The notes under the pieces are model-generated. The model had not been told where the DNA came from. It was given only the letters and a program-made list of their open reading frames with translations, and searched no databases. Positions 60,141 through 64,000 of a stretch of DNA of 64,000 nt are shown piece by piece. Numbering within the stretch: position 1 is the first letter of the stretch; each line of letters opens with the position of its first letter. This stretch comes from an uncultured SAR92 cluster bacterium (GTDB lineage Bacteria; Pseudomonadota; Gammaproteobacteria; Pseudomonadales; Porticoccaceae). Location of the stretch: positions 1-64,000 of the forward strand of contig CABZOI010000010.1 of the NCBI GenBank assembly GCA_902527245.1. Direction: 5' to 3'. The translations under genes and the position numbers were made by a program.

Positions 60141-60608
60141 ATGTCATTACAAGATTCTCAGCGATCAGGTTTTTATGATGAACAGGATTCCACCGTATTT
60201 CATTTGGCAATTCCAGTTACTGATCTGGCTGAAGCAAAAGATTTCTATGTTTCAACGCTTAAATGTGAGATTGGAAGACAGTCTGACACTTGGGTAGATT
60301 TAAATTTTTTTGGACATCAGCTTGTAATTCACTATTCGAAAAATAATGCAAAGCAGAAAACCTCGTTTAATGAGGTTGACGGTCATCAAGTTCCGGCATC
60401 CCATTTTGGGGTCATCTTGTCTTGGGAAATATTTTCATCCTTAGAGTCTCATTTAAGATCTATGGACATTAATTTTTATTTAGATCCTTACCTAAGATTC
60501 GAGGATCAACCAGGTGAACAGAAAACGATGTTCATAAAAGATCCTAGTGACAACTTCATTGAGTTTAAAAGTTTTCGTCATTTGGACGAAATTTTTAAGG
60601 CTTATTAA
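60141..60608 (+). CDS. VOC-family (glyoxalase/dioxygenase-like) protein
   Basis: 155 residues, one VOC fold of two beta-alpha-beta-beta-beta units. Possible metal ligands: His in FHLAIPV (about 21), His in SHFGVIL (about 93) and Glu in FIEFKSF (about 143). Similar to predicted extradiol-dioxygenase-like proteins. The reaction is unknown. It overlaps convergent rnfE by 14 bases. Confidence 0.85.
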   Translation: MSLQDSQRSGFYDEQDSTVFHLAIPVTDLAEAKDFYVSTLKCEIGRQSDTWVDLNFFGHQLVIHYSKNNAKQKTSFNEVDGHQVPASHFGVILSWEIFSSLESHLRSMDINFYLDPYLRFEDQPGEQKTMFIKDPSDNFIEFKSFRHLDEIFKAY

Positions 60609-61254
60609 TGTTTTTTTGTCGGTTTTTGATAAGTGAGTAATTTACGCCAGTTATTAGAAATGCATATATAAAGATGGCCCCTACGGGTGTTTGGAATATT
60701 GGCACAATCATATTTTCGTTAATTACTTGAATCGTCCACGAGCTAGTGAAAGTACCAAAGATGATATCGAAATCGCGAAATATTGTGCCGTATGCGAATA
60801 GCTCTCTAATTAATCCTTGGGCGATAAGTAGTAATGAAAAAGACCTAATGATTTTTATGTTGCTCGGAGTATTTTGGACTCCGATCTTTGGTGCTGCGTT
60901 TAGCACTGACACGAAAAGTAATGAGTGTGCTGCAATTATCAAAATAAACAAATTAGATTTTTGATGGAAATCATATAACTTTGTTTGTATAAAAAGATCA
61001 ACTAATGTCGAGAAAAAAGAAACCAACAAAATCATGTAAAGAAATTTGAATCGTTTTTCAAAAAGAAAATCTTTAAAAGAATAAAAAGCCTTCGTTAGTA
61101 TTAAAACAAACATCAATGAAAGTAATGTGATTATTGAACTTACAAATGATGTAGCCATAATTATTATTGGAGATAATCCAATTAGACCGATCATAGCTTT
61201 ATGGTCAAAGATCGGCTCGTTATGTGATGTTCTTATGGATGGTTCAGCTTTCAT
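60595..61254 (-). CDS. rnfE: RnfE-like membrane subunit, cluster cysteines replaced
   Basis: 219 residues, about six helices. The RnfE/NqrD family is recognisable in LIGLSPIIIMATS (about 24-36), LIRELFAYGTIF (RE...GT-F pattern, about 145) and the final helix. Family members have Cys in LGLCP and in the TNC segment; here these are S28 and S111. No Cys remains in the protein. The last gene of metG-rnfA-D-G-E. It overlaps rnfG by 11 bases. Confidence 0.88.
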   Translation of the reverse strand: MKAEPSIRTSHNEPIFDHKAMIGLIGLSPIIIMATSFVSSIITLLSLMFVLILTKAFYSFKDFLFEKRFKFLYMILLVSFFSTLVDLFIQTKLYDFHQKSNLFILIIAAHSLLFVSVLNAAPKIGVQNTPSNIKIIRSFSLLLIAQGLIRELFAYGTIFRDFDIIFGTFTSSWTIQVINENMIVPIFQTPVGAIFIYAFLITGVNYSLIKNRQKNINKP

Positions 61255-61906
61255 TTTTTGTGGATAAAATCCTTTGTTTATTTTCTTTATAAAATAGTAA
61301 TGCTTTGTAGACTCCTTCTTGAATAGATCTGGAGGTTATTGAAGCTCCTGTTACGACATCAAAATTTTGTTTTGAAAAATAATCTTCCCAACTCTCATCA
61401 TTTGTTTTCGTGATCATGATTCCCTTGAACTTCGATGTCCAAGAACTGTCTTTCTTAATTATTTCGTCGACAATTCCAAGGGTTTCGTTGTGTTCATCGA
61501 CCAGGACTTTCATGACTTCACCCGCTGGCGAGACATATACTCGAAGCTCAATTTTTCCATTGTATGCACGTTTAGTTTTTGATGGAATTATCAAAGAGAT
61601 TAACTTAGCGTCAGAGTATACTGACACAATATTTTCCTCTTCATCATAACCAAGTTGTTCCGTCATTTCTCTTGACAAGTTAATGGAGTTAACAAAGATG
61701 TCGTCTGGTGCTAAATCAATTTCTAATGCCTGTTTTAAAATTTTGTGTTCATAAATTTTTCTATTTTTTTCGATATCCTCTGCGAGTTTTGAATTGACAA
61801 AAATAAGTATTATGAGAAATAGCAGCACAATCAAAGCGAGATTTAAAGTTGGATATTTATTAATAATTGGCACCTCAAATTCGTTGGTATTAAGCTTTAG
61901 ACTCAT
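61244..61906 (-). CDS. rnfG: RnfG-like flavoprotein subunit (covalent FMN site kept)
   Basis: 220 residues: one membrane helix (about 22-38) and a periplasmic FMN domain. YNGKIELRVYVSPAGEV and the HNETLGIVDEI segment match RnfG. The flavinylation motif is D183...TGAS (S189), where the family normally has Thr; Ser can serve for ApbE-type transfer in principle. Overlaps rnfD by 17 bases and rnfE by 11. Confidence 0.9.
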   Translation of the reverse strand: MSLKLNTNEFEVPIINKYPTLNLALIVLLFLIILIFVNSKLAEDIEKNRKIYEHKILKQALEIDLAPDDIFVNSINLSREMTEQLGYDEEENIVSVYSDAKLISLIIPSKTKRAYNGKIELRVYVSPAGEVMKVLVDEHNETLGIVDEIIKKDSSWTSKFKGIMITKTNDESWEDYFSKQNFDVVTGASITSRSIQEGVYKALLFYKENKQRILSTKNES

Positions 61907-62885
61907 GAGTCTGAAAGGTGAATTTATTAATCAGTGGCGTCGCAAAATTTCCTAGTATGACAGCGAAAGCAAGTGCATCTGGATAACCACCCCAGACTCG
62001 TATTATATAAACTAGAACTCCAATGATGCTCCCAAATATTATTTTACCTTTTCCCGTTTCGGGCGAACTTGCTGGATCTGTGATTATAAAAAAGGCACCT
62101 AGCATTGTCGCACCCCCAAATAAATGTAGCATAGCCGAACCGCCACTACTCGAGCTCCCATTGTCAAAAAATAATAGAGACAAAAAACAAATTGATCCAA
62201 TCATTGCAGTGGGACTATGCCAAGTAATCACTCGGATAATAATTAAAAACAGGCCACCTATTAAAAAACTTATGCTGATCCATTCCCAGCCAACAATTGC
62301 AAAACTTGCATCACTAAAAATCTTATTATTTTGATATATTTGCTCTAACATTAGACCGTCATTAGAGTACTTGAACACCTCCAATGCGGTTGCTCCTGTT
62401 AATGAGTCGGGTATCTCAACATTATTGAAAGTGAGACTAAGCGTTTCATGTAGGTTTAGAAATTCGGTTTCATTATTCCGTAATGATCTTGGAAGAATCC
62501 AGGTGCTAATTTTATTTGGGAAACTGATTAATGTGGCTGCGTAGCCAACCATTGAGGAATTGAAAGGGTTCTTAGCATCTATTCCAAAGACATTTTTCGC
62601 GGTGATTGCGATCAGTGTGGCATAAATAATTACCCACCAAGATACCAATGGAGGAAGTGCGATGGCAATGTAAATGCCAATCAAAGTTGATGAAGATATT
62701 TGTAAAGATTTTATTTTCTGCTTGGCTAGCGTAACAATAATCAATTCAAGGCATAGCGTTGAAGTGATGGCTATTGATAGATTGACAAGTACACTCCAAC
62801 CGAATTGATAGATAAGCATGAGAATGGCTGGAGATAGCGCAAGTAGAACATAATTGATTTTACTTTTATTTCCAATATGTCTCAT
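61890..62885 (-). CDS. rnfD: RnfD-like membrane flavoprotein subunit (covalent FMN site kept)
   Basis: 331 residues from the ATG at 62885, whose ATGA overlaps the rnfA stop. An upstream extension of 41 codons lies inside rnfA and is unlikely. About nine helices. PDSLTGAT at 159-166 carries the Thr (T166) that is FMN-linked in family members. ATMLGAFFIITDPASSP and GGYPDALAFAVILGN are RnfD hallmark segments. Confidence 0.93.
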   Translation of the reverse strand: MRHIGNKSKINYVLLALSPAILMLIYQFGWSVLVNLSIAITSTLCLELIIVTLAKQKIKSLQISSSTLIGIYIAIALPPLVSWWVIIYATLIAITAKNVFGIDAKNPFNSSMVGYAATLISFPNKISTWILPRSLRNNETEFLNLHETLSLTFNNVEIPDSLTGATALEVFKYSNDGLMLEQIYQNNKIFSDASFAIVGWEWISISFLIGGLFLIIIRVITWHSPTAMIGSICFLSLLFFDNGSSSSGGSAMLHLFGGATMLGAFFIITDPASSPETGKGKIIFGSIIGVLVYIIRVWGGYPDALAFAVILGNFATPLINKFTFQTHESKA

Positions 62886-63451
62886 AAACCGATCAACCCC
62901 ATAAATCCAAGGGATACAATACCAATCGTAATCATTGTTATTGGATTGCCTCGCAGAACTTCTGGCACAGGCAGTTGATTTATATTTTCTTTGAGTGCGC
63001 TGAAACATATCAGACTTAGTGAAAATCCAATTCCGCCTATCAAGCTGAACAAAGTCGCTTCAAATAAATTTTCATAGTTAGTCGACCGAATTGAAATATG
63101 AAGAATCCCACTGTTGAGAACTATCAGTGATAAAGCTATGTTGTGGCTACTAAATTCCAAGCTAAATAGGTTTTTGAAAAGCTTTAAGACAAAGATCGTC
63201 ATTATGAATATTATCAACATCGAAATCATAGGGAGCAGCAAATTAAAAACTGCATGATTTGCAGTAAGCATTTTTACTATGAGTATGAAAATTGAGGATA
63301 ACATTAATACTATTGTCGTTGCTGCCGCGAGGATGGTTATACGCCTAAAATTAGAAGTTGCTGAAATAAAAAAGCTTAAACCTAGAAGGTCAACGAATAT
63401 TACATAGTTGGCGATAGCAGCAGCCAATGCGATAAGAATTATTTCATACAA
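62882..63451 (-). CDS. rnfA: RnfA-like membrane subunit, cluster cysteines replaced
   Basis: 189 residues, six helices. The C-terminus VPEVLRGNPITMITIGIVSLGFMGLIGL is almost the family consensus. The conserved LGLCPF is LGLSFF here (S26), and the NCAVLG segment is NSGILH (S114), so both iron-sulfur ligand Cys are lost at gapless positions. One other Cys sits at a non-conserved place. TTG start two bases after the metG stop. rnfB and rnfC should follow; rnfD follows instead. Confidence 0.9.
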   Translation of the reverse strand: MYEIILIALAAAIANYVIFVDLLGLSFFISATSNFRRITILAAATTIVLMLSSIFILIVKMLTANHAVFNLLLPMISMLIIFIMTIFVLKLFKNLFSLEFSSHNIALSLIVLNSGILHISIRSTNYENLFEATLFSLIGGIGFSLSLICFSALKENINQLPVPEVLRGNPITMITIGIVSLGFMGLIGL

Positions 63452-63453
63452 GC

Positions 63454-64000
63454 TTACGCCTTCCCATCATTAGCGGAGTTCAACATGGCCTCGATATTTT
63501 CGTTTTGAATTCGACTTATCATGGGTTCGAATTTCTTTATTTTGTGATTCAGTAGAGGATGAGCACTACTGTCCCATAACAGCGTTTCATTTAAAAAATC
63601 TTCGGCCTTTCTAACCAAGTTGGGTGTTATAGGTTTGAGATATATCATAATCAATCTGAATAAATTTATACCCAAGGAGCAAATTTTCAGAACTTGCTCT
63701 TTGTTATCATGTTCCTTATTGAGTACCCAAGGTTGTTTATCAGAGATATACTCATTGGCGAGATCGGTTAATTTAAGAATTTCCCTTGTCGCTTTAGAGA
63801 AATTTCTATTTTCGTAGTTTTCACTGATCGTCGTCGCAGATTGACTGAAAATATTCCATAGTTCTTTGTCATCTATCTCTGAATGAAGATAACCATCGTT
63901 ACCTTTCGTGATAAATTTACTACAGCGGCTAGCAAGATTGACAACTTTCCCAACCAGATCGCTATTTATTTTTTGAACAAAGTCTTCCAAATTTAAGTCA
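63454..64000 (-). CDS. metG: Methionyl-tRNA synthetase (C-terminal part; 5' end outside window)
   Basis: About 181 residues of the anticodon-binding helical domain: EDFVQKINSDLVGKVVNLASR, then DLANEYISDKQPW and ICSLGINLFRLIMIYLKPITP, all close to MetG. The frame is open to the window edge. It ends about 30 residues after the last helix, so the C-terminal EMAP-II-like tRNA-binding/dimerisation domain found in the E. coli enzyme is absent. The rnf-like genes begin 2 bases after its stop and are probably co-transcribed. Confidence 0.95.
   Translation of the reverse strand, partial: DLNLEDFVQKINSDLVGKVVNLASRCSKFITKGNDGYLHSEIDDKELWNIFSQSATTISENYENRNFSKATREILKLTDLANEYISDKQPWVLNKEHDNKEQVLKICSLGINLFRLIMIYLKPITPNLVRKAEDFLNETLLWDSSAHPLLNHKIKKFEPMISRIQNENIEAMLNSANDGKA

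Follow-up and report, generated by a model that had tools for sequence, protein, structure and literature searches.

A cluster-less rnfADGE remnant maintained by purifying selection in two SAR92-clade species

What becomes of an Rnf complex once the parts that carry electrons into and through the membrane have disappeared is the question raised by a locus in a 64,000-nucleotide stretch of DNA from an uncultured SAR92 cluster bacterium. This stretch, here called the window, corresponds to contig 10 of a genome of 1.9 Mb and 94% completeness (G000), and at positions 60595-63451 it encodes four overlapping minus-strand genes, rnfA-rnfD-rnfG-rnfE, directly downstream of metG. A preliminary description made from the DNA alone had proposed that all four Cys expected to hold the intramembrane [2Fe-2S] cluster of RnfA and RnfE are replaced by Ser, and reading the codons in the window confirmed this exactly: S26 (AGC, 63374-63376) and S114 (AGT, 63110-63112) in RnfA, and S28 (TCT, 61171-61173) and S111 (TCA, 60922-60924) in RnfE. 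Not a single Cys was counted in RnfE, as had been claimed, and RnfA contains only one, the non-ligand C149. In alignments to 23 canonical relatives and to the NqrD and NqrE of the same genome, the four Ser fell without gaps into the four ligand columns, including those of RnfA for which an ungapped alignment had been stated, and a conserved Cys was found at none of the positions. Misalignment was rejected on the strength of these two independent references.

The same state was found in a second species, represented by the SAR92-cluster single-cell genome AG-916-D20 (G001; a congener, 78% complete). The arrangement there is identical, metG-rnfA-D-G-E convergent with a glyoxalase-family gene, and the subunits share 35–58% sequence identity with those of the window (RnfA 45%, RnfG 35%). 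Its ligand positions are occupied by Gly (GGC) and Ser in RnfA and by Ser and Ser in RnfE; the fact common to both species is thus the loss of all four Cys, and the description "all serine" holds for the window genome only. A base-call or assembly artefact was rejected, as the state recurs in this independent single-cell assembly at such sequence distance. Sampling of the family and order gave 58 RnfA sequences, of which 55 had Cys at both positions, the exceptions being the two species described here (S,S and G,S) and a genome from another genus of the same family (G055; C,S). A profile built from the two cluster-less RnfA scored 328 bits within the clade and at most 109 bits for canonical RnfA across 392 genomes of the order, with nothing in between, and one scan of named genomes gave the SAR92 single cell as the sole match. 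We found no report on Rnf in SAR92 or on Cys-less RnfA/E in the open-access literature, which is not the whole literature. AlphaFold monomer models of RnfA (predicted local distance difference test score, pLDDT, 71; best Foldseek matches RnfA/NqrE with a template modelling score, TM-score, of at most 0.44) and RnfE (pLDDT 55, poor) were not used as evidence.

The ligand loss coincides with the loss of RnfB and RnfC, as the preliminary description had also held. The rnfA-rnfD overlap (ATGA, with M42 of a 372-residue open reading frame (ORF) as the probable RnfD start) sits where relatives carry rnfB and rnfC, and both genes are missing at the locus. RnfB (PF04060) was not found genome-wide in either species or in a third congener (G002, 64% complete), while it was detected in 4/4 comparison genomes. 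For RnfC, TIGR01945 gave no match above cut-off genome-wide in the same three genomes, the best score (39.7 bits against a cut-off of 245.95) belonging to an unlinked NuoF-like ORF. Relocation of either gene to another part of the genome was accordingly rejected. Weak matches to the RnfC profile were also given by two adjacent ORFs of 518 and 951 residues at G000:C16:13392-15238, common to all three congeners, which probably encode a nicotinamide adenine dinucleotide (NAD)-dependent formate dehydrogenase.

Comparison of the relatives' loci showed metG to be the usual upstream neighbour of rnfABCDGE across the family, so that the orthology of rnfADGE is fixed by position. By BLAST, 23 of 26 operons were canonical, each with a full set of A, B, C, D, G and E; metG lay within the compared stretch in all but three. 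The assembly of the third congener lacks metG and is therefore uninformative on this locus. The window genome furthermore encodes a separate, complete nqr-apbE locus (G000:C3), whose NqrD and NqrE retain all four Cys and which constitutes a positive control inside the same cell. No gene for NqrF or NqrA was found at the rnfADGE locus. Among its four products (Table 1), only RnfD exceeds its NCBIfam cut-off.

Table 1 Coordinates and profile scores of the genes at the rnfADGE locus, in window positions.
Gene	Position	Strand	Description
rnfA (NqrE homologue)	62882..63451	-	TTG start, 189 aa; PF02508 72.6 bits; TIGR01943 74.2 bits, below the 229.3 cut-off
rnfD (NqrB homologue)	61890..62885	-	PF03116 250.5 bits; TIGR01946 287.8 bits (cut-off 207)
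rnfG (NqrC homologue)	61244..61906	-	PF04205 47.5 bits; TIGR01947 83 bits (cut-off 102)
rnfE (NqrD homologue)	60595..61254	-	PF02508 39.9 bits; TIGR01948 44.5 bits (cut-off 213)
metG, 3' part (rest beyond the window)	63454..63999	-	methionyl-tRNA ligase anticodon domain

A scan for promoters of the operon gave no more sites than shuffled sequence and was uninformative, as was a search for SoxR as a possible lost partner, which gave nothing above cut-off in nine genomes, those with a complete Rnf included. The MetG proteins of the two species are about 557–561 residues long and have no C-terminal tRNA-binding domain (L048:5455-7128; L047:6444-8129), while relatives such as G005 and G016 encode MetG of 689–712 residues with this domain present.

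With the ligands, RnfB and RnfC gone together, the electron step from RnfB via the [2Fe-2S] cluster of RnfA/E to RnfG cannot run. RnfADGE is thus not a working Rnf, in agreement with the suggestion in the preliminary description that electrons would not cross the membrane as in known Rnf, and ferredoxin:NAD+ activity coupled to ion transport is predicted from the sequences to be absent.

All four genes have nevertheless been under purifying selection after the two species split. In a pairwise GY94 codon model, a ratio of nonsynonymous to synonymous substitution rates (omega, or dN/dS) of 1 was rejected for every subunit, with twice the log-likelihood difference amounting to 33.6 for RnfA, 50.4 for RnfE, 78.6 for RnfG and 166.2 for RnfD. 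The omega values themselves, well below 1, are rough as the synonymous distance (dS) is saturated (at least 2.8), and our conclusions draw solely on the rejection of omega=1. Neutral decay, which the preliminary description had named as the contrary case, was rejected by the codon likelihoods of all four genes.

Selection has acted very unevenly among the subunits. For each subunit, branch length was expressed relative to the remainder of the metG-based tree and then normalized by the corresponding value of metG; the resulting ratios are rough, as long branches are saturated. Relative to metG, the tip branches were 9.0 times the family norm for RnfA, 8.3 times for RnfE, 2.6 times for RnfG and 1.35 times for RnfD, and the corresponding stem branches relative to metG reached 11.8, 14.5, 3.5 and 2.2. 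The subunit released the most, along with RnfE, is hence RnfA, which is ordinarily the best conserved of all, while RnfD evolves near its usual rate. Among columns invariant in the canonical relatives and lost from both species, the two shared the same new residue at 20 of 50 positions in RnfA, 23 of 52 in RnfE, 5 of 13 in RnfG and 11 of 22 in RnfD, where shuffling gave expectations of 4.1, 4.5, 0.9 and 2.4, respectively. Such an excess of shared derived residues shows that the losses largely preceded the species split and were then held.

The residues that were lost and kept follow the same division. Across the 23 canonical relatives used to define invariant residues, both species retain 30/96 in RnfA, 17/91 in RnfE, 19/37 in RnfG and 54/82 in RnfD. 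Invariant neighbours of the ligands in RnfA/E are also lost, including the Pro after Cys in RnfA and the TTN, DG and LGRA motifs, and the RnfE Asp aligned with NqrD-D133 is Ser in both species; this residue has been implicated in Na+ uptake, a role cited, like that of NqrB-D397, in PMC9325719. The C-terminal KRxRTTG (KRxRxT) tail of RnfE is lost in both species and is missing only where RnfB is missing, which suggests that this tail may contact RnfB. Similarly, the Pro of the N-terminal SP(H) motif of RnfD and its C-terminal PRxYG (PRTYG) motif are lost in all three RnfC-less genomes (the two species and G055), and the SP and PRxYG motifs are therefore candidate contacts to RnfC. The membrane-core residues of RnfD are kept, and so is its DxxTGAT site in both species; in the window, the attachment residue for flavin mononucleotide (FMN) is T166 (ACC, 62388-62390) in DSLTGAT, aligned with the NqrB site of the same genome. 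RnfG keeps the attachment motif DVVTGAS with S189 (TCA, 61340-61342), and D-x-x-T-G-A-[S/T]-I-T is present in both species. Both flavin sites had been correctly reported in the preliminary description, which overlooked the roughly 8–9-fold acceleration of RnfA/E, the loss of the D133 equivalent and a half-lost Rnf in G055.

The latter genome (1.2 Mb, 87% complete) holds A, B, D, G and E (L051:1114-5093, G055:C14). RnfC has been lost via a fusion that left its C-terminal tail on RnfB, and the remaining genes are open. One Cys has been lost per subunit, the second in both cases, with Ser in RnfA and Gly in RnfE. In RnfG, the ETPGL loop has likewise lost its Pro, and only a short fragment of ApbE was found. 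This is clearly an independent, part-decayed state, and it suggests one possible order of events in which the loss of RnfC and of half the ligands comes first.

Our tentative view, falling a little short of even odds, is that rnfADGE descends vertically from a standard rnfABCDGE operon, which had lost B, C and the cluster by the time the two SAR92-clade species separated, and now encodes a repurposed, iron-free remnant centred on RnfD, perhaps acting as a flavin relay to quinone. A known energy machine seems here to have been pared back for a different job. In a small membrane assembly of this kind, electrons from ferredoxin would no longer cross the membrane, and ion pumping by the known route would be lost. 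RnfD would keep its covalent FMN and, if it resembles NqrB, riboflavin, and could exchange electrons with the quinone pool on one side and with a partner in the periplasm on the other, the latter perhaps through flavinylated RnfG, while RnfA/E would serve only as a scaffold. Precedents exist in NQR, where the riboflavin of RnfD/NqrB is able to pass electrons directly to quinone (PMC12174285), and in two-subunit systems of RnfD and RnfG type, for which one-way extracytosolic transfer has been proposed (PMC8238504). The putative assembly would, judging from its motifs, carry flavins and amount to half an Rnf circuit that has no iron. In a bolder form of this reading, to which we assign a probability of roughly one in three, an RnfADGE assembly under selection would contain no Fe-S cluster at all, and covalent flavins on RnfD (and RnfG) would connect the quinone pool with an electron partner in the periplasm, as a half-circuit of RNF/NQR that arose in nature.

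Several observations weigh against the proposed flavin relay. The ETPGL loop of RnfG is lost in both species, where it reads ETLGI and ETTAI (ETPGLG being replaced by ETLGIV in the window), and the family-invariant phosphate-binding Lys of WxVxK is Phe in both. By alignment, the loop would correspond to NqrC 172-176 and the Lys to NqrC K207; NqrC 172-176 forms part of the isoalloxazine pocket and the A/E docking region, and P174 served for an NqrC-NqrD cross-link (PMC12174285, PMC10643135). Loss of both loop and Lys weakens a flavin relay between RnfG and RnfD and is the main weakness of this explanation; RnfG may have retained or lost the ability to deliver periplasmic electrons. The putative "flavin-only complex" of the preliminary description is thus supported only in part, by RnfD with its site and near-normal constraint, but much less so by RnfG, which retains only the attachment motif. 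Furthermore, the position that aligns with NqrB-D397 holds Asn in the window genome (Asp in the other species), and no gene for a periplasmic redox partner adjoins the operon. ApbE is present in the window genome, where it serves Nqr as well and hence is not specific to the remnant, and it was not found in AG-916-D20, which is only 78% complete. An Nqr-type partner of RnfA was not found there either, possibly because the sequence is missing at this completeness; if the absence of ApbE is real, flavinylation would be impossible in that species.

The damage to the RnfG pocket, together with the disappearance of every known electron entry and exit part, also fits a non-redox reuse, in which RnfD and RnfA/E serve as a passive or ion-coupled transporter or as a structural unit and the flavin motifs are incidental. 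The NqrB fold resembles urea and ammonium transporters (PMC10643135), RnfA/E resemble symporters in their half-helices (PMC12174285), and it is the membrane core of RnfD that is kept. We consider this possible but unlikely, as RnfD has kept its DxxTGAT site and RnfG its attachment motif in both species although RnfG is just 35% identical, and the equivalent of D133, with its suggested part in Na+ uptake, is gone. A dead Rnf that has not yet been removed, constrained only against harmful membrane proteins, would account for the 8–9-fold excess rate of RnfA/E and has a parallel in G055, part-decayed with RnfC and two Cys gone and ApbE a fragment. Such slow decay appears similarly unlikely, given that the four overlapping ORFs are intact in both species at a dS of at least 2.8, a strong rejection of omega=1 for every subunit, most of all for RnfD, and derived residues common to both species far above chance.

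The remaining explanations are less probable. The remnant might serve the intact Nqr by helping its assembly, by regulating it or by supplying D or G as exchangeable parts, given that a complete nqr-apbE locus with four Cys is encoded in the same genome and that the subunits are homologous. No convergence on Nqr was however seen, RnfD scoring 94 bits as NqrB type against 288 bits as RnfD type, and relatives with both complexes retain a complete Rnf, which makes a role in Nqr very doubtful. Ser is able in principle to ligate Fe-S clusters and occupies three of the four positions in both species, and a substitute electron-input protein with a cluster held by Ser or other ligands could then sustain transmembrane transfer. 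This is the most far-fetched of the explanations, as one position in AG-916-D20 is Gly, adjoining invariant residues are lost too, the single change NqrD-C29A abolishes the cluster of NQR (PMC10643135) and no RnfB-like gene is left. For changes to the ligand Cys, earlier work on Vibrio NQR, cited in PMC9325719, reported that folding or stability was lost. The iron-free, RnfD-centred remnant remains our preferred reading.

The locus was finally compared with the known systems to which its subunits are related. It shares with RNF/RSX RnfABCDGE, the gammaproteobacterial ferredoxin:NAD+ oxidoreductase (Azotobacter RNF1 structure 8ahx), the metG-linked position, the A-D-G-E order, homologous subunits and the flavinylation motifs of RnfD and RnfG, but differs in being without RnfB, RnfC, the RnfA/E ligands and the RnfE C-terminal tail, and in its altered RnfG pocket. 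In Na+-NQR (NqrABCDEF), NqrB-E are homologous to RnfD, G, E and A, and RNF and NQR have a four-subunit core and its cluster in common (PMC12174285). NQR is thought to stem from an Rnf in which rnfB was lost and NqrF recruited (PMC4014512); it also has NqrA and the [2Fe-2S] cluster, whereas nothing has been recruited at the present locus. The two-subunit Nqr/Rnf-like systems of Actinobacteria and the candidate phyla radiation (CPR) likewise pair an RnfD-type with an RnfG-type subunit, do without the electron path through A/E and are proposed to be one-way (PMC8238504, PMC10979944). In these, RnfD is fused to an NAD-binding domain and has no flavinylation site, while here RnfA/E are retained, the RnfD site is kept and RnfD holds PF03116 only, with no PF00175 NAD-domain fusion. 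None of the three systems retains RnfA/E while losing the cluster, and by the tests made rnfADGE is a derived remnant of an RNF and does not belong to RNF functionally. The lineage has thus gone beyond the "loss of rnfB" step from which NQR is proposed to have arisen (PMC4014512), without recruiting a new donor. Which subunit of RNF/NQR pumps ions is debated, with a channel in RnfD set against alternating access in RnfA/E (PMC12174285), as is whether RnfD/NqrB works apart from the RnfA/E cluster. At this locus, evolution has removed the cluster, the donor and the acceptor while RnfD continues at a near-normal rate, and the role of RnfD alone becomes directly testable.

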